A DNA stretch of 28,815 nucleotides from IMG/VR virus record IMGVR_UViG_3300027859_000061, positions 1-28,815 of that record. One strand, written 5' to 3'. Origin of the DNA: a virus. Positions 1-27,411 of this stretch are shown here, one piece after another. A program made the translations under genes and the position numbers. The notes beneath the pieces are model-generated. The model made no database searches and was not told where the DNA came from. It saw only the letters and a list, made by a program, of their open reading frames with translations. Position 1 is the first letter of the stretch; every line of letters begins with the position of its first letter.

Positions 1-211
1 TCTTTGGTGTAATCGCACCAGTTGTATTCTTCGATACAAAACTAGGATATTGTTGTGCAACTTCTTTGACCACTTTATCATATTGTCTTTGTTGAGTTGC
101 GATTAGTTCATTATATATAGTTCGTTTAGATTTAGTCTTTAATGATTTGGTCTTTCTCTTTCGACCAGTCATATCATATCGTAAACTACCTACTAAATTT
201 ATCGTTCCCAT
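1..211 (-). CDS. Small basic phage protein, C-terminus cut by window edge
   Basis: An open frame starts with ATG at 211 and runs off the left edge without a stop, giving 70 codons. The N-terminus contains SLRYDMTGRKRKTKS followed by further Lys/Arg-rich sequence, then a YPSF stretch. I recall similar short proteins opening with a 'SLRY.MTGRKRK' segment in T4-like marine phages, but none with a known function. It has no visible membrane segment. A near-consensus sigma70 promoter ends 7 bases upstream of the start codon and there is no Shine-Dalgarno sequence, so it is probably the first gene of a new transcription unit and may be read from a leaderless mRNA. The product is unknown. Confidence 0.7.
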   Translation of the reverse strand, partial: MGTINLVGSLRYDMTGRKRKTKSLKTKSKRTIYNELIATQQRQYDKVVKEVAQQYPSFVSKNTTGAITPK

Positions 212-218
212 GTATATA

Positions 219-247
219 ATTATAATATATGTATGTCATTCTTTCAA
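219..247 (-). promoter_or_regulatory. Sigma70-type promoter for the left-edge gene
   Basis: On the minus strand TTGAAA (242-247) and a perfect TATAAT (219-224) are separated by exactly 17 bases (225-241). Only 7 bases separate the -10 box from the ATG at 211, so initiation would fall at or one base before the start codon. It lies in the gap after the first oxygenase gene, as expected for a host-RNA-polymerase promoter in a phage. Confidence 0.7.
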
Positions 248-256
248 CCACTTTTT

Positions 257-889
257 TTAAGGAAGATAGTTAATCCATCCTGTGATTGCATACTTAGTAT
301 CTTGCAATGGTGGGTTACCTCTATGCACATGAGTAAACCCAGCTGGCCAACATACAAATCTTCCTTTCACTGGCGATACTCTTACACCTTGATATAAGAA
401 TTCTGTTTCACCACCATCTTCTACATCATTTAGATACACCATGTATGCAAGTATACTTGTTCTATCATATGCACTTGAACCACCTTCGAAATGCCAGTTA
501 TGATATCCTTCACTTGGTCTTGTCTTTTGCATTTTCATTTGTGCATTATAAAGACCACTATAAACACCTGAGTCAATTACAGGATATCTTATTTGCCATG
601 ATTCTATCACATCATTGTGAATCCAATCACCTATATCTCTGATTGCACCATTAGTCATTGTGTCCATCTCTGTAATGAATATTGATGTATCTGACCTCTG
701 TGCGATATGAGCGCCATAGTCTCTTCGTGTATGAGTTAGACCATGTTCTTCATGTTCATCAAATATACGGATACATTCATCACATACATCATCACCAATA
801 ATACCATCTAGTATTCTTATATGTTCACCAGTCGAATCATCCCATGGTAATTCTACTCTGTTCTTTACTGTTTCTCTATTATCTGCCAT
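257..889 (-). CDS. 2OG-Fe(II) oxygenase, prolyl-4-hydroxylase-like
   Basis: This 210-aa protein has the double-stranded beta-helix pattern of the P4H-like 2OG-Fe(II) oxygenases. The metal site reads YHNWHFEGG, so the first two ligands would be H133 and E135 (HxE in place of the usual HxD). The distal histidine is H189 in HVHRGNPP, and K199 in KYAITGW is placed to bind the 2-oxoglutarate carboxylate. Such enzymes use 2-oxoglutarate, O2 and Fe(II) to hydroxylate a substrate, which cannot be predicted here. It is the last of four tandem oxygenase-like genes; its ATG overlaps the stop of the upstream one as TAATG, so translation is probably coupled. The HxE variant leaves some doubt about activity. 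Confidence 0.85.
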   Translation of the reverse strand: MADNRETVKNRVELPWDDSTGEHIRILDGIIGDDVCDECIRIFDEHEEHGLTHTRRDYGAHIAQRSDTSIFITEMDTMTNGAIRDIGDWIHNDVIESWQIRYPVIDSGVYSGLYNAQMKMQKTRPSEGYHNWHFEGGSSAYDRTSILAYMVYLNDVEDGGETEFLYQGVRVSPVKGRFVCWPAGFTHVHRGNPPLQDTKYAITGWINYLP

Positions 890-1560
890 TATTCTTCTCT
901 CTCGTGTTCATCTCTACCGAACCATATCAGTAGAACAAATCGTTGACCCTCATATATCGGTTCAACCCCATGCCACATTTTTGTAGAATTGTTAAAGAAT
1001 GTAATTGTTCCTATATCTTTTGCAACTAGATTACCTTGCACATTGAGTTGACCGCCTTTGTAGTCATCATTGAGTTGCATGATACATGTTCCAAAGTCTG
1101 TATCTTCTGCAACATCTCTATGAAAAGGGAAGAATGAATCTTCTTTGTAGTGAACAATTTGCATGTATGTAATTCTTCTAAAGTCAGGATGGTCTGGTAT
1201 CAAATGACCCATGACTTCTAATACTGCATTGTATTCTTTTGAACCATCGGCGATAGTCGCATGGTCTTTGTTATGGTCTGCCTCATATTTGTATGATAAG
1301 TTTCTTTCTGTTATCTCATCTGGTGGTGTCACCTCTGAGTTTGCATAATCACATTCAGTAAACGGTAAGTTTAGAAATTGTTCTATGATATGGTCACAAC
1401 CCGCTGGTGTAATTATGTGTGGTATTATCGTAATGAAATCACTGTTGCGTTCTATTTCAAACTCTTCGCCTGAATATTTGTCTACAACAACTTCTGATTC
1501 TGTTTGTTCTTCTGCACCATCCATCTTTGATTGTGCATATGTTCCTAAATTAATAACCAT
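889..1560 (-). CDS. 2OG-Fe(II) oxygenase
   Basis: The protein has 223 aa from the chosen start. FFPFHRDVAEDTDFGTC supplies the HxD iron ligands (H147, D149), MWHGVEP the distal His (H197), and the Arg of EGQRFVLLIWFGR (R207) is the likely 2OG-binding residue. This is a complete catalytic set for a 2OG-Fe(II) dioxygenase; the substrate is unknown. Another in-frame ATG lies six bases upstream at 1566, but the Shine-Dalgarno sequence AAAAGGAG (1567-1574) directly abuts that codon, whereas it has six-base spacing to the ATG at 1560, so 1560 is preferred. The gene overlaps its upstream neighbour by 11 bases and its downstream neighbour by one. Confidence 0.85.
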   Translation of the reverse strand: MVINLGTYAQSKMDGAEEQTESEVVVDKYSGEEFEIERNSDFITIIPHIITPAGCDHIIEQFLNLPFTECDYANSEVTPPDEITERNLSYKYEADHNKDHATIADGSKEYNAVLEVMGHLIPDHPDFRRITYMQIVHYKEDSFFPFHRDVAEDTDFGTCIMQLNDDYKGGQLNVQGNLVAKDIGTITFFNNSTKMWHGVEPIYEGQRFVLLIWFGRDEHEREE

Positions 1561-2266
1561 TGTCATCTCCTTTTGGGTGATAGAAAGTCACTTGCGTGAA
1601 TCTCCAGTTTTCTAAGTATCTATGATAGTCTTCTATATATGCACCATGCATACAATTACCAGGAAATATCACACATCGATTGAACTTCGCAGGTATAACT
1701 TTTCTTATGTTGAATCTCTCTTCTACAGGATATAATAATGCCATGTTCTCATCGTTAGTAATCCATTCACCATCATATATTGCAGTTCCACCATCTTCTT
1801 GTTTATCAAGATAGACTAACATGTTGAGTGTAGACAAATGGTCTGGCGTATTCAATGCACTATCAATGTGAGGATAGTGTTGCATCTTCTTATCAAATAC
1901 TTCTGCTGTCTTGAAACAGTTGAACTCATATAGGCGTGACCAATCATAATGACCTTTGAAGAAATATCGTCTGCATAAATCTAATAATCTCTGTTGAGAG
2001 TTTTCATATAATCTAGTTGGGTGACCAACCTTGTCTACAATTCTACAGTCGAAGTAATCTATACCATTGCGTGTGTTAGATTCAGGATTATATTTCCATA
2101 ATGGGTATTGTCTGTTGATTAAGAACTCGTGTAAGTCTTCTGCATTTTCATAGAAGTCATCTATCACAATTGAGAAACCATCGAATGTATGATTATCAAA
2201 TGAACCTCTCATTTTGTATAGTTCATCGTAATCTACTATTCTGTTGATGTCATCTATGTGGTTCAT
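1550..2266 (-). CDS. 2OG-Fe(II) oxygenase-like protein
   Basis: This 238-aa protein carries a recognisable facial triad: H133 and D135 in YPHIDSAL, and H207 in FPGNCMHGAY, with R222 (NWRFTQ) in the expected 2OG-binding position. The segment LNMLVYLDKQEDGGTAIY matches the core strands of the fold, where a GGT(A/E)IY/F pattern is typical of phage and bacterial members. The substrate is unknown. The start ATG overlaps the TGA of the preceding gene (ATGA), so it is translationally coupled. It differs strongly from its three oxygenase neighbours, so the cluster is not a simple recent tandem duplication. Confidence 0.8.
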   Translation of the reverse strand: MNHIDDINRIVDYDELYKMRGSFDNHTFDGFSIVIDDFYENAEDLHEFLINRQYPLWKYNPESNTRNGIDYFDCRIVDKVGHPTRLYENSQQRLLDLCRRYFFKGHYDWSRLYEFNCFKTAEVFDKKMQHYPHIDSALNTPDHLSTLNMLVYLDKQEDGGTAIYDGEWITNDENMALLYPVEERFNIRKVIPAKFNRCVIFPGNCMHGAYIEDYHRYLENWRFTQVTFYHPKGDDNGY

Positions 2267-3006
2267 GTCAAAACTCCATAATCAAATTGGTCGCCATGAT
2301 GATATGATTCTAAATCTTCGGCGTGTTGTAAGTTAAAGGATATACTTATGCGTTCATAAGATTCATTTTCTCGTGGGTGACCCTTTGGTACGCTATGCAT
2401 TAGATACGATGGCCACAATAAAAAGTCACCATCTTGTGGGTGAAAGTTGAATGATGTATGTTGTCGACCAGTAAATTCATATTGTGAGTCTTCTGGTCTC
2501 ATCTCATCATCATTACCTGACTGACTATGTAATGCAGGCATATTAGGATTCCAGAACTTGATTGGTTCTGATGAGTCTTGCGTTGAGACATAGTATGTGC
2601 CTGATAGTCTAGACTTAACATGATTATGACATTCATGGTCATGTGGTTCATTGTATACATTCACCCATGCAAAGAAATGTATATCGTGTCTATTGACATC
2701 TGTAAAATCTAAATTGTATTGACTTCTACAAAACTCAACATAGGTATCTTTCATCTGATTTGCAAAGTCATTATACCAAGGTTGTTGGTGTGTCTGTTCT
2801 CTTGCATCAGGATAAAAGTATGTGGTGTATTCTGTTAGTGGGTCACCTTTCGGTAATGTGTCTATTATATTTCTACAGTGGTGTGCAACCTCTGTATGAT
2901 TTAGATTTACTTTTCCTTGAAATATAGTTGTAGGGAAGACATTGACATAATCTCCTCTACAAGGTGAATAAGTATTGTTAATTCTGTTCGTCTGTATTGG
3001 TTTCAT
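2263..3006 (-). CDS. Putative 2OG-Fe(II) oxygenase (2OG-FeII_Oxy_5-like)
   Basis: The 247-aa protein resembles the family of putative 2OG-Fe(II) oxygenases in which the iron site sits in an H-x-H...SGTYYV context: here H127 and H129 precede SRLSGTYYVST. The later part GDFLLWPSYLMHSVPKGH gives the distal His (H204), and the Arg in ERISISFNL (R219) is the likely 2OG ligand. The N-terminal VNVFPTTIFQGKV is also usual for this family. His replacing Asp as second ligand is a family feature rather than damage. Its start lies 29 bases inside the preceding lipoprotein gene, and the next gene begins at its stop. It is the first of four tandem oxygenase-like genes. Confidence 0.75.
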   Translation of the reverse strand: MKPIQTNRINNTYSPCRGDYVNVFPTTIFQGKVNLNHTEVAHHCRNIIDTLPKGDPLTEYTTYFYPDAREQTHQQPWYNDFANQMKDTYVEFCRSQYNLDFTDVNRHDIHFFAWVNVYNEPHDHECHNHVKSRLSGTYYVSTQDSSEPIKFWNPNMPALHSQSGNDDEMRPEDSQYEFTGRQHTSFNFHPQDGDFLLWPSYLMHSVPKGHPRENESYERISISFNLQHAEDLESYHHGDQFDYGVLT

Positions 3007-3490
3007 TCACGGTCACATTACGATAATATATTACAACTTCTCCCAATTGTTTGATGTATCTCTTTAACTCTTGCATATCTTCTGCCATGACTTTGTAGTC
3101 ACCGATAGTAGTTGCAACAAATAGTATCTCACCATCATTTACTCTTCTCATTTCATCCATAAATTGGTCATAGTATGTATAACCTACTGGCCAGTCTGGA
3201 TTCTCTCTTTCATCTAACTCACATGTCTTTGGTCTTTTGAATTGTTCTACACCCTCATCGTTGAACTTCTTAGGTTCATATGGTATAGTTCTTCTACATG
3301 GATTTACTATCTTCGCCTCTGATACTACAAACCATTTCGGTGCTGTTAGTTGCACTGGTCTAGGCAAATCAGGTTGAAGTATTTCAATCTCTAATGGTTT
3401 AGATTCTATCTGTATCTTTTTTGTTGGTAATAACGAACAACTAGTCGTTAGTATCAGGATTGGTAAGATTATATAATTCTTTAGTGTCAT
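2978..3490 (-). CDS. Lipoprotein, candidate outer-membrane spanin (Rz1-like)
   Basis: The 170-aa protein begins with a short charged end, a hydrophobic stretch and a lipobox-like TTSC at residues 15-18, so it should be a lipoprotein with its acylated Cys near residue 18. The mature part is rich in proline early on (LQPDLPRPVQ). Its start lies within the 3' end of the preceding membrane/coiled-coil gene in another reading frame, the arrangement of Rz/Rz1 spanin pairs that fuse inner and outer membranes in the last step of lysis of Gram-negative hosts. GGAGGG eight bases before the ATG is a good ribosome site. It is longer than lambda Rz1, so the assignment rests on topology and gene arrangement, not sequence identity. 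Confidence 0.6.
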   Translation of the reverse strand: MTLKNYIILPILILTTSCSLLPTKKIQIESKPLEIEILQPDLPRPVQLTAPKWFVVSEAKIVNPCRRTIPYEPKKFNDEGVEQFKRPKTCELDERENPDWPVGYTYYDQFMDEMRRVNDGEILFVATTIGDYKVMAEDMQELKRYIKQLGEVVIYYRNVTVNETNTDEQN

Positions 3491-3824
3491 CCTCTATGCC
3501 CTCCATTACTAGTTCACTTGCATTGTTCATTCTTAGTTCTATCATACCAGGTTTCTTTAGTGCAAGTAAATCTAAATTGTGTCTTGAAAATATTTCTAGG
3601 TATTCTGCCTTCTCTGATTCAATTTCTGCATTTCGTCTAGTCATTTGCAAAAGAGATTTACCTTGTTTTTCAAAGTTATCTCGCAAGGCGGTCATCGCCT
3701 GTGTCTGTTCTTCTAATGCAGTTTCTAATTTTATATTGTTCTCTTTGAGTGTCTCATTCTGATTATACAAATAGAATGTGAGTAAACCCAAGGTCACCAA
3801 TAGACCCATTGTAAATTGATTCAT
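3441..3824 (-). CDS. Inner-membrane coiled-coil protein, candidate i-spanin (Rz-like)
   Basis: This 127-aa protein has one N-terminal membrane segment (about residues 6-22) followed by a long charged, heptad-like helix (residues 24-90), which is the layout of an Rz-type inner-membrane spanin with the coiled coil in the periplasm. The downstream lipoprotein gene overlaps its last 50 bases in another frame, matching known embedded or overlapping spanin pairs. AGGGAG upstream of the ATG is a good Shine-Dalgarno sequence. A 26-aa membrane ORF lies just upstream. No endolysin was recognised in the window, so lysis genes may be dispersed, as in T4-like phages. Confidence 0.6.
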   Translation of the reverse strand: MNQFTMGLLVTLGLLTFYLYNQNETLKENNIKLETALEEQTQAMTALRDNFEKQGKSLLQMTRRNAEIESEKAEYLEIFSRHNLDLLALKKPGMIELRMNNASELVMEGIEDDTKELYNLTNPDTND

Positions 3825-3833
3825 ATTTTCTCC

Positions 3834-3914
3834 CTAAAAGATTACTATAATAAGACTAACGATTATGAATGCCCCAAATATAACTTCTTCTTCGTCAAAT
3901 CTCTTCGGTGCCAT
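3834..3914 (-). CDS. Tiny single-pass membrane peptide (26 aa)
   Basis: ATG at 3914 opens a 26-codon frame ending in TAG at 3834. The peptide has a charged front (MAPKRFDEEE) followed by a 16-residue uninterrupted hydrophobic segment to the C-terminus (VIFGAFIIVSLIIVIF). AGAGG lies about six bases upstream of the ATG, inside the preceding gene. The frame overlaps the 3' end of the preceding gene by 20 bases and fills an otherwise empty gap directly before the candidate spanins. A holin-like or accessory lysis role is possible from position only; chance cannot be excluded at this length. Confidence 0.45.
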   Translation of the reverse strand: MAPKRFDEEEVIFGAFIIVSLIIVIF

Positions 3915-4152
3915 CCCAATCCTCTACTATAAAGTTCAGACCACCTGAACTTCTGTATTCTACTACCTTGTTATTTTCATCTCTGAACTTTAAATGTTTC
4001 TCTTTCTGAACTAATAGTTTCTTGGCGACAAAGACTCTATCATCTGCATCACCATAAACACTGTTAAAAGATACAGTCACTTTATATCTAGTAGTAAACT
4101 TGGACTTTATCCAGTAGTAGATATACTTAACCCATTTTTTTAACTTGTTCAT
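3895..4152 (-). CDS. Conserved-looking small protein, function unknown
   Basis: The 85-aa protein has a basic, aromatic N-terminus (MNKLKKWVKYIYYWIKSKF) that could form a short amphipathic or membrane-associated helix, followed by a beta-rich part (RYKVTVSFNSVYG) and an acidic tail. I do not recognise a family. The start codon follows an ACTAAATA box by five bases and has no Shine-Dalgarno sequence. It precedes the candidate lysis genes. Confidence 0.6.
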   Translation of the reverse strand: MNKLKKWVKYIYYWIKSKFTTRYKVTVSFNSVYGDADDRVFVAKKLLVQKEKHLKFRDENNKVVEYRSSGGLNFIVEDWDGTEEI

Positions 4153-4156
4153 AGTT

Positions 4157-4170
4157 ATATTTAGTTGTTA
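4157..4170 (-). promoter_or_regulatory. TAACAACTAAATAT element upstream of the 85-aa gene
   Basis: This 14-base sequence on the minus strand recurs exactly at 21527-21540, again five bases (counted from the ACTAAATA box) before a start codon without a Shine-Dalgarno site. Its 9-base front half, TAACAACTA, is also found at 15319-15327 before the gene starting at 15307. ACTAAATA resembles the T4 late box TATAAATA with two changes. It may be a variant late or middle promoter; the overlap with the upstream stop codon (AAC TAA) is a caution. Confidence 0.35.
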
Positions 4171-4670
4171 TTTCTGAGGTCTTTTAGAATGTTGATAGTA
4201 TTCTTTGCACTAGTGTGAACTATGCCGATACCACCTGCCTCTTCCCATGCATCGATGTTCTTTTGTCTATCATCGATTAGAACAGAACCCTCATAGGCGT
4301 ATGCCGCCTTTTGTGTCCCTGTAAATGTGCAAGTCACTGGCACAGTAGGGTCAACATGTCTCTTAATCCATTCGTTCTTATCAAACACAACCAACTCTCT
4401 GTTGACTTCACCAGCGGCAGTCAATATCTCCCATGGTGTTTCACAATGTCTGACATATGCAAGTAAGTCATACATGTCAACCATAGGTGGCAAGTTTGCG
4501 AATAGTCTTTTGTTAGTAAGTTCTTCTTTTCTTATATCGTATGTAGTGTGACCTGCATCATCATTAGTAAGTGGTTCACCCAAATACTGAGGCATTTCTA
4601 CACCCCTCAAAAAGTCGGCGAGAACACCGTCCATGTCTAAAAATATTCTTTTTATTTTTCCTTTCATCAT
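4161..4670 (-). CDS. HAD-family 5'(3')-deoxyribonucleotidase-like phosphatase
   Basis: The 169-aa protein opens with the HAD motif I FLDMDGVLADF (nucleophile D12, acid/base D14), has a motif II-like ILTAAGE, and ends with motif IV SVLIDDRQKN. The small size and DMDGVLADF signature match the NT5C-like deoxyribonucleotidases of phages, which remove phosphate from (deoxy)nucleoside monophosphates; a role in tuning nucleotide pools would fit the upstream nrd operon. The frame extends to a TTG at 4706, but that TTG is the first base triplet of a perfect -35 box. The start at 4670, six bases after the TATAAT box, is therefore chosen; it also places motif I close to the N-terminus as in homologues. 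Confidence 0.8.
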   Translation of the reverse strand: MMKGKIKRIFLDMDGVLADFLRGVEMPQYLGEPLTNDDAGHTTYDIRKEELTNKRLFANLPPMVDMYDLLAYVRHCETPWEILTAAGEVNRELVVFDKNEWIKRHVDPTVPVTCTFTGTQKAAYAYEGSVLIDDRQKNIDAWEEAGGIGIVHTSAKNTINILKDLRNNN

Positions 4671-4676
4671 GTAAGT

Positions 4677-4706
4677 ATTATAGTCTTTTTTGATGGTCAT
4701 TGTCAA
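4677..4706 (-). promoter_or_regulatory. Consensus sigma70 promoter for the HAD gene
   Basis: On the minus strand a perfect TTGACA (4701-4706) and a perfect TATAAT (4677-4682) are 18 bases apart. The -10 box ends six bases before the ATG at 4670, so the transcript should begin at or next to the start codon. The promoter lies inside the 3' end of the HExxH gene, indicating that the HAD gene can be transcribed separately from the nrd operon. Confidence 0.7.
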
Positions 4707-5016
4707 GGGTGGTTTCTAGTAAATACGCCTCATTTTCATCTAAAGGTTCACCATTTAGAACCTGTCTAGCATGCACCATTTCGTGTGCAAGTGTGATATA
4801 TCTTTCTTGATTGAGTTTGACATATATGTTGATATATGTGCGTTTGCCTAATATTCTTGGGTGTTCTATGATACCCATTTGACTAAAAGATGGCGGTAAT
4901 CTCTTTATCTCGATGACTGCATTGTGGTGGTCGATACCCAATGTTTTAGAATAGTCGACTGCCTTCTCTAACAGTAATGTGTTTTTACAGTAAATCTCCA
5001 TCTTCAAGTTCTTCAT
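4678..5016 (-). CDS. Small HExxH metalloprotease-like protein
   Basis: This 112-aa protein contains an HExxH zinc-binding helix, ITLAHEMVHARQ (H78, E79, H82), with an acidic helix 14 residues later (ENEAYLLE, around E96) that could give the third ligand, as in short zincin or SprT-like domains. Outside this motif I find no recognised domain, and the short length leaves substrate recognition unexplained. It overlaps the 55-aa zinc-ribbon gene and is part of the tightly packed operon downstream of nrdB. The alternative start at 5001 would shorten the protein by five residues without touching the motif. Confidence 0.65.
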   Translation of the reverse strand: MKNLKMEIYCKNTLLLEKAVDYSKTLGIDHHNAVIEIKRLPPSFSQMGIIEHPRILGKRTYINIYVKLNQERYITLAHEMVHARQVLNGEPLDENEAYLLETTLDNDHQKRL

Positions 5017-5152
5017 TATATACTTCTAAATCTTCTTCGCCACACATAGGACAACATACTGGTCGTAAATCCTCGTGTTCTTCTCGCACCTCTGTGATAT
5101 CAATAGTCATATCAAGGTCGCAATCGGCACAATAGATGTGATGTCTAATCAT
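4985..5152 (-). CDS. Zinc-ribbon-like small protein (55 aa)
   Basis: An open frame from ATG at 5152 to TAA at 4985 encodes 55 residues. It has two Cys pairs, YCADC near residues 7-11 and CCPMCG near 33-38, separated by an acidic/charged stretch, which suggests a single zinc ribbon. It fills the only gap between the 84-aa gene and the HExxH gene, overlapping both by 8 and 32 bases, in line with the compact operon. Function unknown; small phage zinc ribbons are often transcription or nuclease adaptors, but nothing here decides that. Confidence 0.65.
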   Translation of the reverse strand: MIRHHIYCADCDLDMTIDITEVREEHEDLRPVCCPMCGEEDLEVYNEELEDGDLL

Positions 5153-5399
5153 CTTTTTCCTCGTCTAGTTTCTTCTCTCCTATGACTTCATCATAGAAGT
5201 TCTCAAATGACTTTGATTTACCATTTATTGTTGCATATGGTAATTCTCTGTCTTCTGGTGGATTCATAAAGTCTTCGCCCTTTGTATATACTCTGACTTC
5301 ATGTTCATCATGGTCTATGGTTCTAATGACATGTTTCCACCTCATATCTATAACATCTTGTTCGTTAGGATGGTTCAGATATAAGATGTAAGAGTTCAT
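5145..5399 (-). CDS. Hypothetical acidic protein
   Basis: The 84-aa product has no motif that I recognise. It has a short beta-like N-terminus (NSYILYLN), many charged residues and an acidic, Lys/Glu-rich C-terminus. The start codon overlaps the glutaredoxin stop (ATGA), so the two are coupled in translation. Its place inside the nrd/redox operon suggests an accessory role there, by position only. Confidence 0.6.
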   Translation of the reverse strand: MNSYILYLNHPNEQDVIDMRWKHVIRTIDHDEHEVRVYTKGEDFMNPPEDRELPYATINGKSKSFENFYDEVIGEKKLDEEKDD

Positions 5400-5629
5400 A
5401 CTTTTCTATAACCCTTAGACCATTCTTCTAGTTCAGTGTAACCACCTATGTTTTCACCATGAACTCTGATTTGTGGAAATGTTCTTGCACCAGGAAACTT
5501 GTCTAACATTTCTTCTCTGCCAAAATCTGTTCCTAATGATTGATATGTGTATTCATACCCTTTCATTTCACATAATTGTTTTGCCCTATCACAAAAAGGA
5601 CATTGTGGTTTTCCGTATATCTCTATCAT
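5396..5629 (-). CDS. Glutaredoxin
   Basis: This 77-aa protein is a complete glutaredoxin: active site CPFC (C10-C13), the cis-proline segment TFPQI (T50-P52) and the glutathione-binding GGYTEL (from G62). It should use glutathione to reduce disulfides in the cytoplasm; the obvious partner is the C-terminal CxxC of the NrdA encoded upstream, since each round of ribonucleotide reduction leaves that pair oxidised. Start and stop overlap neighbours as ATGA on both sides, placing it firmly in the nrd operon between the cytochrome c gene and an 84-aa unknown. Confidence 0.93.
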   Translation of the reverse strand: MIEIYGKPQCPFCDRAKQLCEMKGYEYTYQSLGTDFGREEMLDKFPGARTFPQIRVHGENIGGYTELEEWSKGYRKV

Positions 5630-6075
5630 TCTGGTAACCCCGCTTCTATAAATTCGCCAATAGTATCTATATCACTATCTGATAATAGACCTGCCTGAGC
5701 CCACATAGTTGAACTCATATTGCCGACTGTTTCTCTATTTTGATAGGCGTATAACCTATCGACTATGTATTCTTTACTTTGACCTGCAAGTGCAGGAAAT
5801 ACTCCCATACCCTCGCCTTTCTGACCATGACAAGCGGCACAACCACCCCATAGACCACGAATAGAACTGAATTCGTCAAGACTTGCAAGTGCTTGTTTCT
5901 CTCTTAATTGTTCTACAACAGTTCCGTTTTCTTCGACATATTTGACATAACATTCACCTGTGCATGAACTGTTTCTTGGGTAACCTTTGTATTCTAAGTT
6001 GTTATATGTATGACTTAAAAGACCATACATGAACCCACATATGCCTATTACTAAATAAAATGCATTTTCTCTCAT
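5626..6075 (-). CDS. Membrane-anchored cytochrome c, class I (c553-like)
   Basis: The 149-aa protein has an N-terminal hydrophobic segment (residues 6-21) acting as signal peptide or membrane anchor. It then has a linker with a CTGEC pair (C38, C42) and a cytochrome c domain: heme-binding CAACH at 79-83, GxGxxxFPALAGQS, and a likely axial Met at M124 in TMWAQAGLLSDSDI, typical of c553-type proteins. It should sit on the periplasmic side and need the host's heme-attachment machinery. An upstream in-frame start at 6165 would place 30 extra residues before the signal; the ATG at 6075 is chosen because it overlaps the previous stop as ATGA and puts the hydrophobic segment at the N-terminus. Cytochromes are unusual phage cargo. 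A role as an electron shuttle that keeps respiration going during infection is inference. Confidence 0.88.
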   Translation of the reverse strand: MRENAFYLVIGICGFMYGLLSHTYNNLEYKGYPRNSSCTGECYVKYVEENGTVVEQLREKQALASLDEFSSIRGLWGGCAACHGQKGEGMGVFPALAGQSKEYIVDRLYAYQNRETVGNMSSTMWAQAGLLSDSDIDTIGEFIEAGLPE

Positions 6076-6293
6076 AGTTTTATTGCCAATAGTAAGAAAA
6101 TCGCCATCAATGTGATGTTTGCAAAGAACATCAATAAACCTAGTATCGTATGATACCAAATCCATCTTGTCTTGTATGCGTTCTCTATTGTTAATTCATC
6201 GGGGTCAGGCGAACCATCTGTATTTCTTGCAACTTTTTTAGATAGTTCTTCCTCTTCTCTACTTCCCCATAGTATTTGCCACCATTTGTTCAT
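6072..6293 (-). CDS. Small membrane protein next to cytochrome c
   Basis: The 73-aa protein has a charged, cytoplasmic-type N-terminal half (EEEELSKKVARNTDG) and a hydrophobic C-terminal half from residue 44 (WIWYHTILGLL... to LLLAIKL), long enough for one long or two short membrane helices. I recognise no family. It lies between nrdB and the cytochrome c gene with ATGA overlaps on both sides, so it is co-translated with the cytochrome and could be its membrane partner or dock it to a host oxidase. That is inference from position and topology. Confidence 0.7.
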   Translation of the reverse strand: MNKWWQILWGSREEEELSKKVARNTDGSPDPDELTIENAYKTRWIWYHTILGLLMFFANITLMAIFLLLAIKL

Positions 6294-7387
6294 AATTTGA
6301 AATCCTGAAATGTATCGTCACTGACATCTTGTTTAATCCCACCAATGACATAAGATTCAATCTCTGTCTCTTGTGGGGCGTTCTGTAATCCTCTACTATT
6401 CAACCAGTGACGAGTCCATGGTAAAGGATTGTTAGCAGATGATACATCGTATATTGGGTTGAGACCAATCATTCTTAATCTCTTGTTTGCAATATACTCG
6501 ACATACTTATTCAATAGTGGTACCGATAAACCTATCATACTACCATCTTTGAATAGAAACTCTGCCCATTCTTTTTCTTGTGCAACTGCATCTTCATACA
6601 TCTCGTAAACTTCTTGTTCACAATCTTTCATGACTTTATTCATTATCTTATCATTCTCATGTTTCTGATAACATTTAAGTATGTGTTGTGATGTTGCAAG
6701 GTGTTGTGCCTCATCTCTGGCGATGAATGATATTATCTTCGCACTTCCTTCCATCAGTTTAAGTTCACCAAATGCAAAACTACATGCAAATGATACGAAA
6801 AATCTTATGCCCTCTAGTATGTTGACTGATACAAGTGCAAGATATAATGCCTTGTATAGTTCATACTCATCTACTTTCAACCCTAAGAGTTGTCTACGAC
6901 CTAATTCTATGAAATGGTCATACTTTTCTGTGACCATAACTGCCCTCTTAATGATTGCATCTTCGTCTAAAATAGTGTCAAATACATCGGCAGGGTTTGG
7001 GTATATGTTCTTGATGATATGTGTATAACTTCTACTATGAATAGTCTCCATGAAGTCCCATGTAATGATACAAGACTCTAGTTCAGGTAAAGTGACGAAT
7101 GGTAAGAATGCTATGGACGGCGCTCTACCTTGAACTGAGTCTAGTAAAGTTTGATATCTGAGATTAGAAGTAAAGATATGTTTTTGTGCATCATTGAGTG
7201 TTGCGTAATCGTTTCTATCTTTTTGTAATGATACTTCTTCTGGTCTCCAGAAATACCCTAATTGTGTTTGTGTAAGTTTGTCAAAGATAGGATATTTGAA
7301 CTCATCAAATCTTTGCGTGTTTAGTTCTTCACCAAAGAATAACTTGTTCTTTGTGAAATCGATTTTGTTCTTATTAAATACTGTCAT
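6290..7387 (-). CDS. nrdB: Ribonucleotide reductase class Ia, small subunit
   Basis: This 365-aa protein is the radical-generating beta subunit of aerobic ribonucleotide reductase. All diiron ligands and the radical tyrosine are present. D83 lies in LLDSVQGR, E114 and H117 in METIHSRSY, the radical Y121 follows directly, E192 lies in NILEGIRF, and E226 and H229 in RDEAQH. They match E. coli D84, E115, H118, Y122, E204, E238 and H241. The frame opens at 7411, but the ATG at 7387 overlaps the preceding TGA (ATGA) and gives the usual N-terminus TVFNxN, so it is preferred. It works with the NrdA encoded upstream; the two genes are separated by an oxygenase gene. Confidence 0.97.
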   Translation of the reverse strand: MTVFNKNKIDFTKNKLFFGEELNTQRFDEFKYPIFDKLTQTQLGYFWRPEEVSLQKDRNDYATLNDAQKHIFTSNLRYQTLLDSVQGRAPSIAFLPFVTLPELESCIITWDFMETIHSRSYTHIIKNIYPNPADVFDTILDEDAIIKRAVMVTEKYDHFIELGRRQLLGLKVDEYELYKALYLALVSVNILEGIRFFVSFACSFAFGELKLMEGSAKIISFIARDEAQHLATSQHILKCYQKHENDKIMNKVMKDCEQEVYEMYEDAVAQEKEWAEFLFKDGSMIGLSVPLLNKYVEYIANKRLRMIGLNPIYDVSSANNPLPWTRHWLNSRGLQNAPQETEIESYVIGGIKQDVSDDTFQDFKL

Positions 7388-11634: not shown

Positions 11635-11642
11635 TACTATTC

Positions 11643-12487: not shown

Positions 12488-12488
12488 A

Positions 12489-14923: not shown

Positions 14924-14935
14924 CAATCTGAATGA

Positions 14936-15307: not shown

Positions 15308-15323
15308 AATATAAATTGTAGTT

Positions 15324-15359: not shown

Positions 15360-15367
15360 AGAGGTTC

Positions 15368-15802: not shown

Positions 15803-15806
15803 AATT

Positions 15807-16070
15807 CTATCCTGTTATTGCGACACCAACACCTAATACTTCTGCGTTGGCGGCGAAGATTTCATCAGAAGGTTCTTTTTCAACAACCTCTGATGAATTT
15901 GCCTTCAATGTGAAAGTCCCAATTAAACTATTAGAGCTATTCTCTATTGAAACAAGTCTATCTGTTCCACCAGAGTTCACTAGTCTTACAGCAGTTGAAC
16001 TGCCAAAGTTTGAACCATTTGTTGTGGATGTTCCACAAGCTGCTTCTGAACCTAATACTTTAATTCTCAT
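15807..16070 (-). CDS. Small beta-rich virion-type protein
   Basis: The 87-aa protein is rich in Ser, Asn, Gly and Val with alternating beta-strand patterns (STAVRLVNSGGTDRLVSIEN). There is no signal peptide or catalytic motif. It looks like a small structural or decoration protein, and is placed between an immunoglobulin-like virion protein and a candidate internal head protein. AGGGAAAG lies upstream of the ATG. No family is recognised. Confidence 0.6.
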   Translation of the reverse strand: MRIKVLGSEAACGTSTTNGSNFGSSTAVRLVNSGGTDRLVSIENSSNSLIGTFTLKANSSEVVEKEPSDEIFAANAEVLGVGVAITG

Positions 16071-16634: not shown

Positions 16635-16648
16635 TTTATTTTCCTCTC

Positions 16649-20864: not shown

Positions 20865-21229
20865 TATAATTCCCCTTTATCGAAGTAGTTAAACATCTTC
20901 TGTTTACCTGCCTCATTTAGTCTTAATGATTTCGCAAGTCTGCCAAGCATATTGCGTTCTGTTAGTTTCTCGATGGATTTTTCTACTGATTCGGATTGTT
21001 CAGCGAGTTGTGTCTCTACATCTCTGAGTTCAGTTTCAAGTCGGAGTTTTTTCTCTTCGAGAGACTCCACTTTTGTTTCTGACTTCTCTGCCTCTTCCTT
21101 AAATTCTTCTTTAAGTAGCGCTTCGATTTCATCCTCTGTAAGTGTGTCCTCGTTTACTGGTTCTACTACAGGTTGTTTGCCATGTGCTCGAACTTGTTCT
21201 AGTTTGTCTTTCCAACTTTGATTTTCCAT
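20864..21229 (-). CDS. Acidic coiled-coil protein, candidate core/scaffold component
   Basis: The 121-aa protein is acidic and heptad-like from residue 30 to 95 (LEEKKLRLETELRDVETQL), with a short basic C-terminal part (MLGRLAKSLRLNEAGKQK). This is the style of small head-core or assembly chaperone proteins, but no family is recognised. A perfect late box TATAAATA lies eight bases before the ATG and there is no Shine-Dalgarno site. It is the first gene of the transcript that continues into the EF-hand-like and 845-aa genes. Confidence 0.55.
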   Translation of the reverse strand: MENQSWKDKLEQVRAHGKQPVVEPVNEDTLTEDEIEALLKEEFKEEAEKSETKVESLEEKKLRLETELRDVETQLAEQSESVEKSIEKLTERNMLGRLAKSLRLNEAGKQKMFNYFDKGEL

Positions 21230-21237
21230 GATATAGT

Positions 21238-21245
21238 TATTTATA
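21238..21245 (-). promoter_or_regulatory. Late-promoter box TATAAATA
   Basis: A perfect T4-type late box on the minus strand overlaps the stop of the upstream 93-aa gene and ends eight bases before the ATG at 21229. The expected transcript start is two or three bases upstream of the start codon, leaving no room for a ribosome binding site. Confidence 0.65.
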
Positions 21246-21522
21246 TGTTCTCAATCCTTATGATTAAGTCATTTTCCCCTTTTATTACTCTGTGATAAAC
21301 CATCTTCTGTATAAAGTAATCATGACCTATCATTAATTCTTCTGGCAACTTATCATCAAACTGCAATTGCCAACCTTGTCCACCTAAGATATGAATTTTT
21401 CTATGCGTTCTATCTCTATGCCAGACTAATTCTTCTTCTGAAACATCACTACTAAAGGTTCGAACTATGTAGTTTCGACCTGTTCCATGCTGTTCTAATA
21501 CCTGTTCAGTATATGGTTTCAC
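21241..21522 (-). CDS. Small cupin-like protein
   Basis: The 93-aa protein reads as a short beta-barrel: YIVRTFSSDVSEEELVWHRD, then a GGQGWQLQFD strand, HDYFIQKMVYHRVIKG and DLIIRIE. WHRDRTHR and YHRVIKG give His residues at cupin-like positions, so a metal may be bound. I recall similar short cupin-like proteins in T4-like marine phages. The start codon is GTG (21520-21522), preceded by the ACTAAATA box at five bases and no Shine-Dalgarno sequence. Function is unknown. Confidence 0.6.
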   Translation of the reverse strand: MKPYTEQVLEQHGTGRNYIVRTFSSDVSEEELVWHRDRTHRKIHILGGQGWQLQFDDKLPEELMIGHDYFIQKMVYHRVIKGENDLIIRIENI

Positions 21523-21526
21523 ACAA

Positions 21527-21540
21527 ATATTTAGTTGTTA
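21527..21540 (-). promoter_or_regulatory. TAACAACTAAATAT element upstream of the cupin-like gene
   Basis: An exact copy of the 14-base element at 4157-4170, located the same distance before a start codon (ACTAAATA box plus five bases). It lies in the short gap after the stop at 21545. Identical sequence and spacing at two unrelated genes suggest a regulatory signal rather than chance. Confidence 0.4.
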
Positions 21541-23273: not shown

Positions 23274-24191
23274 TTATTTCTCCTTCTTATCTAAATAGGC
23301 GGCAATCGCCATTTGTCTAATCTTTTTATCTGACTTACCTTTAAACTGTGGTGCATCAGACTTTCTAAAATCGTCTATGTAATCTCCTGCATCTGCATTT
23401 GGTCCTAGTTCTTCATACTTAACTTTGTGCATTTTGTCTTTGATTTGGTCCATTCTCTTATGAATACCCATTAAAGAATCTTTTCTTCCACCTGACTCAG
23501 CCTTATCTGCCTGTGTTCTTAAATCGGCAAGTTGTTTCTTCAAGTTCATATACTTACGCACATCATATGATTCTTCTAGTTCTTCATTGTATTGTGCAAC
23601 AATCATACCTATTTGATTGATAAGAGATGTGATTACTGGTGTAGGTAATGTTGATAGTTGTTGCATTGTATCTTTAGATAGACCTTTAACTTTCTTTAGA
23701 TTCTTTTTCCAAGTAGATATTGCAGTCATATCTTTGTTCTTTTCATTCATCTCTGGAACACAATCTGGTACCATTTTCTTACCTTTCTTCTTCATACCAA
23801 CTTGTTTATAACCATCCCAACATGCTTCTTTTTCTAGTCTTTTGCCATCTTTATCATACTTACCTGATTTTTTCTTTGCGATAGCAATTGCGGCTTGTTG
23901 TGCAGGTGATACTGCCTCACCATACATTTGTTTGAACTTATCTGTATGTTTAGATGGTTTAGTTTTCTTTAGTTTGCCGTCTTTGTCTCTATCACCTGGT
24001 GCTTCTTTGTATGCATTAGGGTTGTCATCAGACATACTTGCACCCTTTTTAAAGTGTGCATCTCTGGCGTCTTTCTTATCTTTCTTTACACCTGAATAGT
24101 ATTTCTTAGGTTGAGTTCCCTTTTTGTCATCGACATCTGGGTCTTGTGCGACTCTTCTAAGTTTTTCTAATATGTTATCTAACTGACTCAT
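23274..24191 (-). CDS. DUF6321-like phage protein
   Basis: The 305-aa protein has near its N-terminus the block KKYYSGVKKDKKDARDAHFK followed by DDNPNAYKEAPGD, which I associate with DUF6321 of marine T4-like phages. A second block, CWDGYKQVGMKKKGKKMVPD with Cys at 124 and 144, recurs in such phages as well. The C-terminal half is helical and Lys/Asp-rich. No activity is known. The start is at ATG 24191, five bases after a perfect late box, without a Shine-Dalgarno sequence. Confidence 0.65.
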   Translation of the reverse strand: MSQLDNILEKLRRVAQDPDVDDKKGTQPKKYYSGVKKDKKDARDAHFKKGASMSDDNPNAYKEAPGDRDKDGKLKKTKPSKHTDKFKQMYGEAVSPAQQAAIAIAKKKSGKYDKDGKRLEKEACWDGYKQVGMKKKGKKMVPDCVPEMNEKNKDMTAISTWKKNLKKVKGLSKDTMQQLSTLPTPVITSLINQIGMIVAQYNEELEESYDVRKYMNLKKQLADLRTQADKAESGGRKDSLMGIHKRMDQIKDKMHKVKYEELGPNADAGDYIDDFRKSDAPQFKGKSDKKIRQMAIAAYLDKKEK

Positions 24192-24195
24192 AATA

Positions 24196-25488
24196 CTATT
24201 TATACTTTTTTGTAAGTAATTGTCTTTGTCTCCATAAAGAAGAAGGTTTGTTATTAGGGAAAGATGTAGACCATGTCATAAGTTTACTAAACAATGAGTT
24301 TGTTTTCTTTTGTAGTGTTGACAAATCATCATCATTTGTGACTTGAACAAAGTCTTTTTTGAATATCTTCTTCATGATATCAATATTCTTTTGTGACCTA
24401 TCCCAATCTTTCTTAACTATTTCAGGTGGTAATTTTCTAGCACGCATTGAGTTTCTTTTTTGTGCGTTATCTAATGATGCACTTACATACACCATCTTAG
24501 ATTCATACCCCAATCTATCTAACATACCTTTGTAGAATTTAATCTTACTTGAATCTGCACTTGTAGTATCGAAAACAAGACCTAGTCTGCCATCAATGTA
24601 TCTGTCCATCATTCTAGTAGTTTGTCTTTTTGCTTTCTTTCTGATTGGGTCTCTGATTTCAGCAGGCACAGTTTTTAAATCTAGAGTTTGACCTGCCTTT
24701 TTTAAACCTGTTTCAAATGATTTATCTGTATTGACTATCTTCAAACCTAATGCCTTGAATGATAATTTATTTACTACAGTTGATTTACCAGAACCTGGAC
24801 CACCCATTAAGAATACTGCCTTGAAAATGCCTGGGTCATATACACCCTCTTGAATTAAATCTTCTTGCATGTAAAGTGGTAGGTGTGTATCTTCGTTGAT
24901 ACCCATACCCTTACGCACATCTTTGTATAGTTTGTCTGCGAACTGTTTATTTGCCACACCTTGTTTGAATGTGTCGAAGTCTCCTTGTTCAGCGGCAGCT
25001 CTCATTTTACTTGCACTCATTCCTGATACATCATCTGCATCGGGGTCTCTCTCACCTGCACTGACTATCTGTATCTCATCGAACTTATAGAAACCATGTC
25101 TTGCCTTTGTGCCATTGTATTTCTTTAGTAATGCATCGAACTCTCTGATTCTATCTGAACCTGCAACCATATAGATACTTCTATACCCTTGACTGTATAA
25201 TGCGTTTGCAATTTCAAATACAGTTCTTGCACTGACATCTGGCACTTTGACTTTCTTACCAAAGAACTTTCTTAGATAGTTTACTTTCTGTTTGTGATTG
25301 AGTGGATTCTTTTTCTTATCGTTTGAATGTGATGTAAATACCATTGCATCACCACCAACTTTCTTTGCAAGTCTATTCAATACATCAACTAGTTTTGCGT
25401 GTCCTGTTGTCGGTGGATTGAAACGACCAAATGCAAACACTACTGGTCTGTTCTTTGCTTCTGATATAAATCTTTTTAGTGTTTTCAT
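24196..25488 (-). CDS. Capsid-targeted NMNAT-like nucleotidyltransferase fused to P-loop kinase
   Basis: The 430-aa protein starts MKTLKRFISEAKNRP, a capsid-targeting-like leader with I-S-E/A at residues 8-11. Residues 16-195 form an HIGH-type nucleotidyltransferase: GRFNPPTTGH (21-30) and MSASKMR (157-163), as in NMN adenylyltransferases. Residues 222-410 are a P-loop kinase: GGPGSGKST (229-237) and VFDTTSADSS, close to zeta-toxin/PNK-type kinases. Between them, I212-Q-E214/G fits the prohead-protease rule, so the two domains might be separated in the head. The order resembles NadR (NMNAT plus nicotinamide-riboside kinase), making NAD salvage a candidate, though the kinase half looks less like NadR. 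An upstream TTG at 25500 is rejected: ATG 25488 shares its A with the upstream stop (TAATG) and starts exactly at the leader. Confidence 0.75.
   Translation of the reverse strand: MKTLKRFISEAKNRPVVFAFGRFNPPTTGHAKLVDVLNRLAKKVGGDAMVFTSHSNDKKKNPLNHKQKVNYLRKFFGKKVKVPDVSARTVFEIANALYSQGYRSIYMVAGSDRIREFDALLKKYNGTKARHGFYKFDEIQIVSAGERDPDADDVSGMSASKMRAAAEQGDFDTFKQGVANKQFADKLYKDVRKGMGINEDTHLPLYMQEDLIQEGVYDPGIFKAVFLMGGPGSGKSTVVNKLSFKALGLKIVNTDKSFETGLKKAGQTLDLKTVPAEIRDPIRKKAKRQTTRMMDRYIDGRLGLVFDTTSADSSKIKFYKGMLDRLGYESKMVYVSASLDNAQKRNSMRARKLPPEIVKKDWDRSQKNIDIMKKIFKKDFVQVTNDDDLSTLQKKTNSLFSKLMTWSTSFPNNKPSSLWRQRQLLTKKYK
24197..24204 (-). promoter_or_regulatory. Late-promoter box TATAAATA
   Basis: A perfect late box on the minus strand overlaps the last two codons and stop of the kinase-fusion gene (TAT AAA TAG) and ends five bases before the ATG at 24191. 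The T4 rule puts the first transcribed base at the start codon. Confidence 0.6.
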
Positions 25489-26693
25489 TATTTGTCCCAA
25501 TTCTTGGCGACTGTAAAGTTATTTAGTGAGAACTCCATTCGGTCTACTAACTTCACTGCCTTGCCATCGTTATCAATTGCAACATATCCTTCTGGATTTA
25601 CTGTCTTCAATCCATTAGAGTCTCTTACAAATGTTCCTATTGATTTTGCTTTGTTTAGTCCTTTTATTATTATATCTTTACCATCAACTAGATTAGTTTG
25701 AAATATAGTCAATGCATTGATGAACACCTTTAAACCTAATAGTTCTCTTCTGAGTTGTTCACCCATTTGTCTTTTTTGTTCTTTTGTTTTTTCCATTTTG
25801 ACTTTTGCAACTACTTTGTTTTTCCAATAGTCATCAAAATGTTTTATGTAATCTGCATAAGAGAGTTTGAATTTACCCTTTCTTATCTGAGTATTCATAT
25901 ATGTTTTGTATGTTGCACCTGCACCTTTCTTCGCAATGGTGTCTTGAACTTTCATAAACTTTATCAATGCAGGTCTTTTGATTTGTCTAAATGCTTTACC
26001 TGTTGTTGATAATGCCTTTGACAATGCAACTGATTCTTTTGCTGTGAGTGTAGAATTACCTGATACATCTTTGTATGTTGCATCATCAATCCATACATCT
26101 CTAGAATTACCTAGTGTTGATATGTCTGCACCAAATGATGCACTAAGGTCTTCTATTGAACCACCAGTGTATGTGGTGTGAAATACTATACCATATTTTG
26201 CGTTTGCAATCTTCTCACCTAAGTCTGATTTGATATCAACTGCATACATTATGGTGTTTGGTTGAAATGTGACACAATCTACATCATCTATCTTTTGCAT
26301 CTTCTTGTCTGAGTCTGTAAACATCAAATCACCTTGCAGTATCTTGTTCCAAGATAGTTTAGATAGATGTCTGAATGATTCTAAGAACTTAGTTTCTAAG
26401 TCGCCAGACAACTCAGGAGCGTCTTTAATCGCCTGTTCTGAGGTGTAATGTAGTTGTGCTTTAGTGAATAGTGATTTCTTTGCGACAAAGAACTGACCTG
26501 TCTCTGGATGTTTTCCTGCCCATATTGCAGGTGCACCATCCCATTTTACAGTCATGTTTACACCACGAGATGAATTGCCTTTCATCATGTCTCGAAGTGA
26601 TTGTAGGAAGTTTATAGATGCACGACCACCATCAATACCATTGTTGATGATTTCGTCTTCTAAATGCTCTAGATGTAGATTTTTCACTGCCAT
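25488..26693 (-). CDS. Divergent covalent nucleotidyltransferase (ATP-ligase-like)
   Basis: The 401-aa protein carries the ordered motifs of the ligase/capping-enzyme superfamily. Motif I is KWDG (K50 the expected nucleotidyl-lysine), then ILQGDLMF (119-126, motif III with Asp for Glu), EGYV (368-371, motif IV) and KAVKL (378-382, motif V). The 240 residues between III and IV far exceed the usual spacing and include a Lys-rich helical insert (about 230-345). It would activate an RNA, DNA or other 5' phosphate with AMP or GMP. I associate the KWDGAPA context with the uncharacterised DUF6267-type phage proteins. A late promoter and hairpin leader precede it, and it is coupled to the nucleotidyltransferase/kinase gene by TAATG, suggesting a joint task. 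Confidence 0.7.
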   Translation of the reverse strand: MAVKNLHLEHLEDEIINNGIDGGRASINFLQSLRDMMKGNSSRGVNMTVKWDGAPAIWAGKHPETGQFFVAKKSLFTKAQLHYTSEQAIKDAPELSGDLETKFLESFRHLSKLSWNKILQGDLMFTDSDKKMQKIDDVDCVTFQPNTIMYAVDIKSDLGEKIANAKYGIVFHTTYTGGSIEDLSASFGADISTLGNSRDVWIDDATYKDVSGNSTLTAKESVALSKALSTTGKAFRQIKRPALIKFMKVQDTIAKKGAGATYKTYMNTQIRKGKFKLSYADYIKHFDDYWKNKVVAKVKMEKTKEQKRQMGEQLRRELLGLKVFINALTIFQTNLVDGKDIIIKGLNKAKSIGTFVRDSNGLKTVNPEGYVAIDNDGKAVKLVDRMEFSLNNFTVAKNWDK

Positions 26694-26722
26694 AGTAGTA
26701 TCACTTTTTGTTCGTGTAATTA

Positions 26723-26735
26723 GTTGCTATGCAAC
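26723..26735. promoter_or_regulatory. Short hairpin at the predicted 5' end of the ligase-like mRNA
   Basis: GTTGC and GCAAC form a five-pair stem with a three-base loop. It begins about six bases after the TATAAATA box at 26741-26748, that is, at the predicted first transcribed base. A hairpin at the extreme 5' end can protect phage mRNA from decay. The stem is short, so this is tentative. Confidence 0.4.
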
Positions 26736-26740
26736 ACTAC

Positions 26741-26748
26741 TATTTATA
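26741..26748 (-). promoter_or_regulatory. Late-promoter box TATAAATA with normal leader
   Basis: A perfect late box in the gap between the 146-aa gene and the ligase-like gene. Unlike the other late boxes here it leaves a leader of about 40 bases before the ATG at 26693. Confidence 0.7.
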
Positions 26749-26751
26749 TAT

Positions 26752-27192
26752 CTACGGTGCTGATGCCTCGATAGTTGCCAGGTCTTCTAAAGAATGTAAA
26801 CCTGATGGGTCTTCTCCATTATCTACGATTGCTTGATAATGAGTTTGTTTCTTGGTAAGATATGTTATAAAGTCTGAAAGTAAACCTTTTTCTGTATTCT
26901 TAGTAGTTGTTGTAGCATTTGTTATACTAGTCCAAATATCAAACATAGTGCCAGAAGTTGCTGATGAATTTGCACTTCTCCAATCTGCAGCCATTTGGTC
27001 TAAACCACCTGTGCCAGTCCACTCGTGAACTAAAGATACACCATCTCTGGCATATTGAGTGTAAGCAGGAACACCACCATCAAGATATATCTTAATGTTT
27101 AATGATTTTGTTCCTTCAATACAATCGTATTCGTATTGTGCTCTCTCTAATTTTGCGTTAATATCTGTTAGTTGGTCTGCGTATACACCCAT
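26752..27192 (-). CDS. Unknown virion-type protein
   Basis: The 146-aa protein begins with a helix (YADQLTDINAKLERAQYEYD), followed by a Gly/Thr/Ser-rich part and a final helix. Its composition (little Lys, many Thr, Ser and Asp) differs from the Lys-rich head cluster and is more like tail or decoration proteins. No family is recognised. AGGAG five bases before the ATG is a good ribosome site. Confidence 0.6.
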   Translation of the reverse strand: MGVYADQLTDINAKLERAQYEYDCIEGTKSLNIKIYLDGGVPAYTQYARDGVSLVHEWTGTGGLDQMAADWRSANSSATSGTMFDIWTSITNATTTTKNTEKGLLSDFITYLTKKQTHYQAIVDNGEDPSGLHSLEDLATIEASAP

Positions 27193-27204
27193 AGTATCTC
27201 CTAA

Positions 27205-27224
27205 GATTTATAATACTATTTAGT
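27205..27224 (-). promoter_or_regulatory. Late-promoter-like boxes before the 146-aa gene
   Basis: Two candidate boxes lie in and beside the short gap: ACTAAATA (27217-27224) and TATAAATC (27205-27212). From the first, transcription would begin near 27211 and leave about 19 leader bases including the AGGAG site; from the second the leader would cut into that site. The first is therefore the better candidate, although it deviates from the consensus at two positions. Confidence 0.4.
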
Positions 27225-27396
27225 TTTTTGATAGCGGTCTGGAGTGCAGTTTTTCATCTATTTGTTCAATTTTTAATGAAACAACTTCTGCTTTCTTATC
27301 TTCGCCATTTGATTTCATAGTTTTAAGTTCTCTTTTGAGTTGAACTTTCTTCTGAATCATACCGATAACTTCATCGGGTTTAAAGTTCTTATTCAT
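27220..27396 (-). CDS. Short coiled-coil protein (58 aa)
   Basis: An open frame from ATG 27396 to TAA 27220 encodes 58 residues, highly charged with a heptad-like pattern (VIGMIQKKVQLKRELKTMKS, then VSLKIEQIDEKL). It fills the gap between the GIY-YIG gene and the 146-aa gene. An AATAAATA box lies seven bases upstream and there is no Shine-Dalgarno site. The function is unknown; an adaptor or assembly factor would fit its size. Confidence 0.6.
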   Translation of the reverse strand: MNKNFKPDEVIGMIQKKVQLKRELKTMKSNGEDKKAEVVSLKIEQIDEKLHSRPLSKN

Positions 27397-27403
27397 AATC
27401 TTT

Positions 27404-27411
27404 TATTTATT
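27404..27411 (-). promoter_or_regulatory. Late-promoter box AATAAATA
   Basis: A NATAAATA-type box on the minus strand in the 24-base gap after the GIY-YIG gene, ending seven bases before the ATG at 27396. The predicted transcript would start one or two bases before the start codon. Confidence 0.5.

Follow-up and report, generated by a model that had tools for sequence, protein, structure and literature searches.

The stretch of DNA analysed here, referred to below as the window, is a 28.8-kb virus record of IMG/VR (IMGVR_UViG_3300027859_000061, positions 1 to 28,815) with a GC content of 36% and its main genes on the minus strand. It encodes a gp61-type DNA primase, NrdA and NrdB, and was therefore assigned to a T4-like phage; T4-type core genes, the mark of T4-like phages (Kyanoviridae and kin), are present, and the primase tree that accompanies this assignment carries long-branch warnings. 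The subject of this study is a set of promoters in the window that end only a few nucleotides (nt) before a start codon, either sigma70-type promoters or boxes of the T4 late type (late boxes). The sites are listed below, followed by three late boxes at a longer distance for contrast.

211 to 253, minus strand: sigma70-like promoter, TTGAAA at 247-242, 17 nt, TATAAT at 224-219; 7 nt to the ATG at 211, whose gene runs off the window end.
4668 to 4706, minus strand: consensus sigma70 promoter TTGACA-18-TATAAT; 6 nt to the ATG at 4670 of a deoxyribonucleotidase-like gene (4161-4670).
11632 to 11671, minus strand: sigma70 promoter TAGACA-17-TATAAT; 8 nt to the ATG at 11634 of the gp61-type DNA primase gene (10597-11634).
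14908 to 14922, minus strand: late box ATAAATA; 5 nt to the ATG at 14910 (gene 14281-14910, phrog_18642).
21227 to 21244, minus strand: late box ATAAATA; 8 nt to the ATG at 21229 (gene 20864-21229).
24189 to 24203, minus strand: late box ATAAATA; 5 nt to the ATG at 24191 (gene 23274-24191).
27394 to 27410, minus strand: late box ATAAATA; 7 nt to the ATG at 27396 of a 58-codon open reading frame (ORF); a weak member.
4150 to 4164, minus strand: late box CTAAATA, overlooked at first; 5 nt to the ATG at 4152 (gene 3895-4152).
21520 to 21534, minus strand: late box CTAAATA, overlooked at first; 5 nt to the GTG at 21522 (gene 21241-21522).
27190 to 27223, minus strand, contrast: late box CTAAATA with a leader; 24 nt to the ATG at 27192, with AGGAG inside the leader.
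16632 to 16656, minus strand, contrast: late box CTAAATA with a leader; 15 nt to the ATG at 16634, with GAGAGGA between.
26691 to 26747, minus strand, contrast: late box ATAAATA; 47 nt to the ATG at 26693, without a Shine-Dalgarno (SD) motif.

The first seven sites come from the original prediction, according to which the genes behind them are translated from leaderless transcripts. All seven distances proved to be correct (7, 6 and 8 nt after TATAAT; 5, 8, 5 and 7 nt after ATAAATA; all on the minus strand), and no SD motif was present at any of these starts. The prediction had limited the late boxes to ATAAATA and so missed the CTAAATA form, which abuts the starts at 4152 and 21522 and precedes SD-bearing leaders at 27192 and 16634. 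Relative G008 has ATG in place of the GTG at 21522, behind the same box, and CTAAATA lies 5 nt before starts similar to that at 4152 in L003, L005, L007, L014 and others.

The SD motif was found at none of the nine abutting starts, as against 14 of 27 other ATG starts (Fisher P = 0.006), which were picked by hand from the ORF list, with ORFs listed with TTG starts left out. Of the SD sequences cited for other starts, one was wrongly assigned: AAAAGGAG at 1567 (AAGGAG, window 1560-1566, minus strand) touches the ATG at 1566 and therefore cannot serve it, an in-frame ATG 6 nt past 1566 being the likelier start for this motif. The box at 26741, which had been set apart as an exception with a normal leader, has the spacing of a leadered site but, as listed, no SD motif either. 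An ATG opening an ORF of at least 50 codons lay 5-8 nt after four of the five ATAAATA boxes, as compared with 13 of 164 boxes for 20 permuted 7-mers pooled (binomial P ca. 2e-4). With scores of 11, 12 and 11 out of 12, the three sigma70 sites rank among the top four of the 67 sigma70-like matches in window 1-16000, where the matches as a whole stand at shuffle level (67 vs 67.2 in shuffles). One further sigma70-like match (TAGACA-17-TATATT, 15307-15336, minus strand) ends 0 nt before the ATG at 15307; it misfits the leaderless geometry and may be due to chance or to a different start.

Box-to-start distances were then counted across the group, in 142 loci and eight records (150 sequences, 2.7 Mb), with starts deduplicated by N-termini at 70% identity within each distance to handle overlapping contigs. 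These counts, and those of coupling, of the sixth base and of terminators below, leave aside the 18 most distant primase loci (L064-L081) as well as ORFs shorter than 60 codons. Five records entered the analysis in truncated form, lacking their final 12.4 (P-SSM2), 4.8 (KVP40), 0.007 (G008), 3.8 (G010) and 20.1 kb (G006). ATG occurred 89 times exactly 5 nt after ATAAATA, while the mean at the other distances from 0 to 40 nt was 4.9. At the same distance, GTG, TTG and CTG were each found 0 times, and ATG was found 36 times after CTAAATA, 0 times after GTAAATA and once after TTAAATA; the box core [AC]TAAATA was defined by this distance peak. The late-box distances were bimodal, lying either at 5-8 nt without SD or at 16-40 nt mostly with SD, and few (28) fell at 9-15 nt. 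At 5 nt, 8 of 118 starts had the SD motif, and at 6-8 nt 2 of 39, in keeping with random positions (8.6%); the figures rose to 65 of 91 at 16-25 nt and 78 of 143 at 26-40 nt. Sigma70-like promoters stood 6 nt before 41 starts and 7 nt before 20, most neighbouring distances having 3-14 (18 were counted at 0 nt), and a stricter set (TATAAT, −35 element with at most one mismatch) gave 13, 9 and 4 starts at 6, 7 and 8 nt. This count against controls, which had been proposed as a check in the original prediction, therefore put the late boxes in a narrow peak at precisely 5 nt and the sigma70 −10 boxes of the window's group in one at 6-7 nt. The promoter element thus stands at a fixed distance from the start codon as in leaderless genes, the start codon is AUG except for the GTG behind CTAAATA at window 21522, and SD is no commoner than at random at the 5-nt starts, where its position is occupied by the box, so that this last property is not independent of the first.

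Chance would be favoured by AT-rich DNA, in which TAAATA and ATG abound, and both the 36% GC content of the window and the shuffle-level count of sigma70-like matches are in line with it. However, no such peak appeared when the box was permuted or its first letter changed, nor for different start codons or distances, and T4 and P-SSM2, which are equally AT-rich, are without the pattern. Chance is refuted for the set of sites and is hardly credible as its explanation; single sites such as 27396 or 211 could be chance.

The same arrangement was seen in the annotated genome of the SAR11 phage HTVC008M. Among its 197 annotated starts (a 198th feature, starting at base 1, was excluded), 16 are preceded by a late box at 5-8 nt and 8 by a late box with a leader, SD being present in all 8; the remaining starts comprise 98 with SD only, 1 that fits the sigma70 version and 74 with none of these signals. 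An SD match occurs near two of the 16 abutting starts, in both cases upstream of the box and beyond the predicted 5' end of the RNA. The abutting genes include those annotated as head-tail adaptor, tail tube cap, baseplate wedge, tape measure, DNA end protector and CsgF.

T4 late boxes are described as beginning at −13 (PMC2988020). An 8-bp box beginning there ends at −6, which makes the sixth base after the box +1, and at a spacing of 5 nt +1 falls on the A of AUG. In the group, A or G occupies base 6 after the box in 81% of 143 leadered SD-bearing late promoters (76% of 25 T4 promoters), which fits +1 at this base without using the ATG. Of 118 abutting sites, 11 have an intrinsic terminator immediately in front of the box, as against 4 of 234 leadered sites, which leaves little room for a leader; at 6280 and 75559 of HTVC008M, too, an intrinsic terminator ends just before the box. 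RNA polymerase with a gp55-type sigma factor would accordingly be expected to start the RNA at the sixth base after the box, which would place the 5' end on the A of AUG or 1 to 3 nt ahead of it. The resulting message would have neither leader nor SD, and its translation would be started by ribosomes recognising the 5'-terminal AUG, which we infer as the simplest reading. Other late genes of the same phages, with 16-40 nt between box and AUG and mostly with SD, would be translated in the ordinary manner, giving two translation modes under one promoter type. Judging from these sequence patterns, a portion of the late regulon of these phages, together with some early genes in the window's group, is very likely expressed from leaderless mRNAs.

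The boxes could be real promoters while translation proceeds mainly from longer read-through messages coupled to the upstream gene, the RNA from the abutting promoter being little translated. A same-strand upstream stop codon lies within −12 to +20 of 62 of the 118 abutting starts, and this stop codon often lies inside the box, so coupling from read-through RNA is possible there. At 21 of the 118, on the other hand, no same-strand ORF ends within 60 nt, which means that coupling cannot be the rule at these starts, and the 11 that directly follow a terminator also speak against it. Coupling explains neither the exact 5-nt spacing nor the restriction to ATG, and in HTVC008M the divergent starts at 18916 (minus) and 18943 (plus) have only 26 nt between their start codons, with both boxes inside. 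We therefore regard coupling as an unlikely general explanation. The original prediction is supported overall, but the division drawn in it, with leaderless first genes and SD or coupling for the others, needs refining: many late promoters of the same phages have SD leaders, the 74 HTVC008M starts mentioned above carry neither signal, and the 62 abutting starts with a nearby stop could also be coupled.

If the ATG merely suited promoter positions +1 to +3, the real translation start could lie downstream of it, inside an ordinary SD leader. In that case, SD should be more frequent at in-frame start codons within codons 2-30, but it was found at 15 of 111 behind abutting starts and at 13 of 72 behind leadered starts. 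In addition, all 16 HTVC008M sites at which an ATG 5-8 nt after the box opens 30 or more codons coincide with annotated starts, and the first codons are conserved in relatives. A codon-position test of these first codons spoke only weakly for the abutting start, with a third-position excess for the primase but none for 24191, and with a result not in favour for 24191 and 21229. A downstream start is very improbable on this evidence.

The conservation of the individual sites was evaluated by counting distinct sequence contexts with the box 3-9 nt before an in-frame ATG. The box was kept in 22 of 29 distinct relatives at 4670 (20 of the 22 at 6 nt), in 45 of 54 at 11634 (mostly at 6-8 nt), in 26 of 34 at 14910 (21 at 5 nt), in 13 of 13 at 21229 (8 nt in eight, 5 nt in three, 6 nt in two) and in 32 of 41 at 24191 (28 at 5 nt). 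No homologue of 211 was found among 160 loci. The window's sites were mostly not kept in distant homologues (HTVC008M, Melnitz, T4, Syn9 and others). Upstream of the 14910 homologue in L030, L036, L041, L060, L161 and others, a look-alike of a tRNA 3' end (GGTTCGAATC...CCACC) was noticed by eye before the late box.

Several points weigh against leaderless expression, beginning with the stop codons near 62 of the abutting starts. The expected preservation of spacing in relatives held in most of them at the five sites just listed but failed at 27396, where only 5 of 33 distinct relatives keep the box. The position of +1 has been carried over from T4. Since the box fills about −12 to −6, the absence of SD at abutting starts is partly the same fact as the spacing and not an independent one. 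The sigma70 version, finally, fits only the single HTVC008M start given above, and a loose scan of primase loci flags P-SSM2 and AG-345-F15 too (11 changes were counted along the tree), which makes the sigma70 label a noisy one.

The distribution of the pattern among phages was expressed as the abutting share, that is, the starts 5-8 nt after a late box divided by those at 5-8 or 16-40 nt. The share was 4/7 in the window, 15/24 in HTVC008M, 17/32 in G008, 12/30 in G002, 13/33 in G003, 10/27 in G010, 10/30 in G005, 7/29 in Mosig, 4/28 in Melnitz and 2/17 in G006, the last of which has no clear 5-nt peak and four starts at 0-4 nt. Among nine T4-type or cyanophage-type records, it was 2/45 in P-SSM2, 1/28 in T4, 1/32 in AG-345-F15, 1/31 in S-PM2 and 0 in P-SSM7 (0/28), Syn9 (0/27), phiM12 (0/19), KVP40 (0/29) and RB49 (0/22). 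The range was hence 0.24-0.62 in the window group, HTVC008M and Mosig, and at most 0.04 in the nine records. On a primase tree of 51 rows (midpoint root, long-branch warnings), the branch that holds the window is uncultured and numbers 29 rows, and the SAR11 phages HTVC008M and Mosig form a pair outside it. The abutting pattern occurs in no fewer than two deep branches and is only weakly developed in the OM43 phage Melnitz. A nucleotide search for named-phage neighbours of the window returned matches mainly to nrdA.

Genes for ribosomal protein bS21 were found in 9 of 19 records, namely HTVC008M (W03), Mosig (W02), Melnitz (W04), G001, G003, G005, G006, G008 and G010. None was found in T4, KVP40, Syn9, P-SSM2 or S-PM2, nor in any of 21 further records; these include phiM12, phiM9, AG-345-F15, P-SSM7, P-TIM68 and RB49, and 15 of them are fragments of 14-58 kb. 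The abutting share was 0.12 or more in all eight measured bS21-bearing records and 0.04 or less in the nine T4-type or cyanophage-type records without bS21. A strict partnership was rejected: G006 has bS21 without a clear 5-nt peak, and G002, a 97 kb fragment, has the peak while bS21 was not found in it. bS21 tracks the abutting-promoter pattern loosely. A report on pelagimyophages names bS21 as their main translation-related difference from cyanomyophages (PMC7029224). It is conceivable, although rather doubtful, that phage-encoded bS21, beside the anti-SD, adjusts host ribosomes in the late phase of infection so that they favour leaderless late messages; such a switch, if true, would make phage-modified ribosomes for leaderless mRNA directly testable.

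Leaderlessness throughout the host was also tried as a cause and rejected. In 660 kb of three SAR11 genomes there was no 6-nt peak (one start at 6 nt, few promoters), and TATAATN6ATG in five SAR11 genomes was only slightly above the reversed control. The host sample, which is small and comes from bacteria whose promoters rarely match the consensus, thus does not explain the pattern. In the same SAR11 pieces (L408-L440, 660 kb), TATAAT with at most one −35 mismatch occurred 8 times, as compared with 222 times in the 2.7 Mb of the phage group.

Other features of the window lie outside the promoter question. No tRNA and no Rfam match was found in it, and an 845-amino-acid protein gave no match. 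Two adjoining genes at 257-1566 (minus strand) match the 2OG-Fe(II) oxygenase family phrog_61, and 7384-8349 gave a ferrochelatase-like match. An ORF at 5626-6165 (minus strand) without a PHROG match contains, by reading of the sequence, a CAACH (CxxCH) motif, which suggests a c-type cytochrome.

If leaderless expression is true, some of the most abundant bacterial viruses of the sea express part of their late genes without SD-led initiation, structural genes such as the gp13-like adaptor, baseplate and tail genes of HTVC008M included, and one promoter type feeds two initiation modes. The box-to-start spacing would then provide gene finders with a signal for placing starts in these genomes, supply late promoters that the earlier pelagimyophage study could not find, and offer a natural set of paired leaderless and leadered genes for testing ribosome choice. 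Late promoter prediction in pelagimyophage genomes was reported there as unsuccessful (PMC7029224). The Melnitz paper counted 15 late promoters in a scan with the T4 late motif, and the word 'leaderless' appears in it only within a reference title (PMC9004378). The general idea is already in print, as the AR9 paper remarks that phage transcripts are often leaderless (PMC5312081). No report of leaderless late transcripts or of a gp55-type leaderless regulon in T4-like marine phages was found in a literature search whose scope excluded most subscription papers. Leaderless mRNA itself is known; what is added here is its very likely use by a phage late-sigma regulon next to ordinary SD leaders.

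The box core, taken from the distance peak, and its predicted placement are those of T4-type late promoters (gp55/gp33/gp45-dependent, TATAAATA). The annotation of HTVC008M includes a late sigma factor, a late promoter factor and a polymerase processivity factor; the window spans only 28.8 kb. The late box here begins with A or C, unlike the TATAAATA-type boxes of T4. In T4, RB49, KVP40, phiM12 and the cyanophage-type records, the next start lies at 16-40 nt, whereas here a quarter to three fifths of the late starts abut the box. Within the pelagimyophages (HTVC008M group), HTVC008M and Mosig share the pattern, and the window stands on a separate uncultured branch of the primase tree. In bacteria, leaderless genes are reported to carry a −10-like signal some 12 bp upstream of the start (PMC3160421), and lambda cI, the classic phage case, is mentioned in that paper only as an example from lambda. 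They likewise have a −10 element directly before AUG and no SD; the arrangement described here differs in that it occurs in a lytic T4-like phage group and would operate via the phage late sigma factor as well as sigma70.

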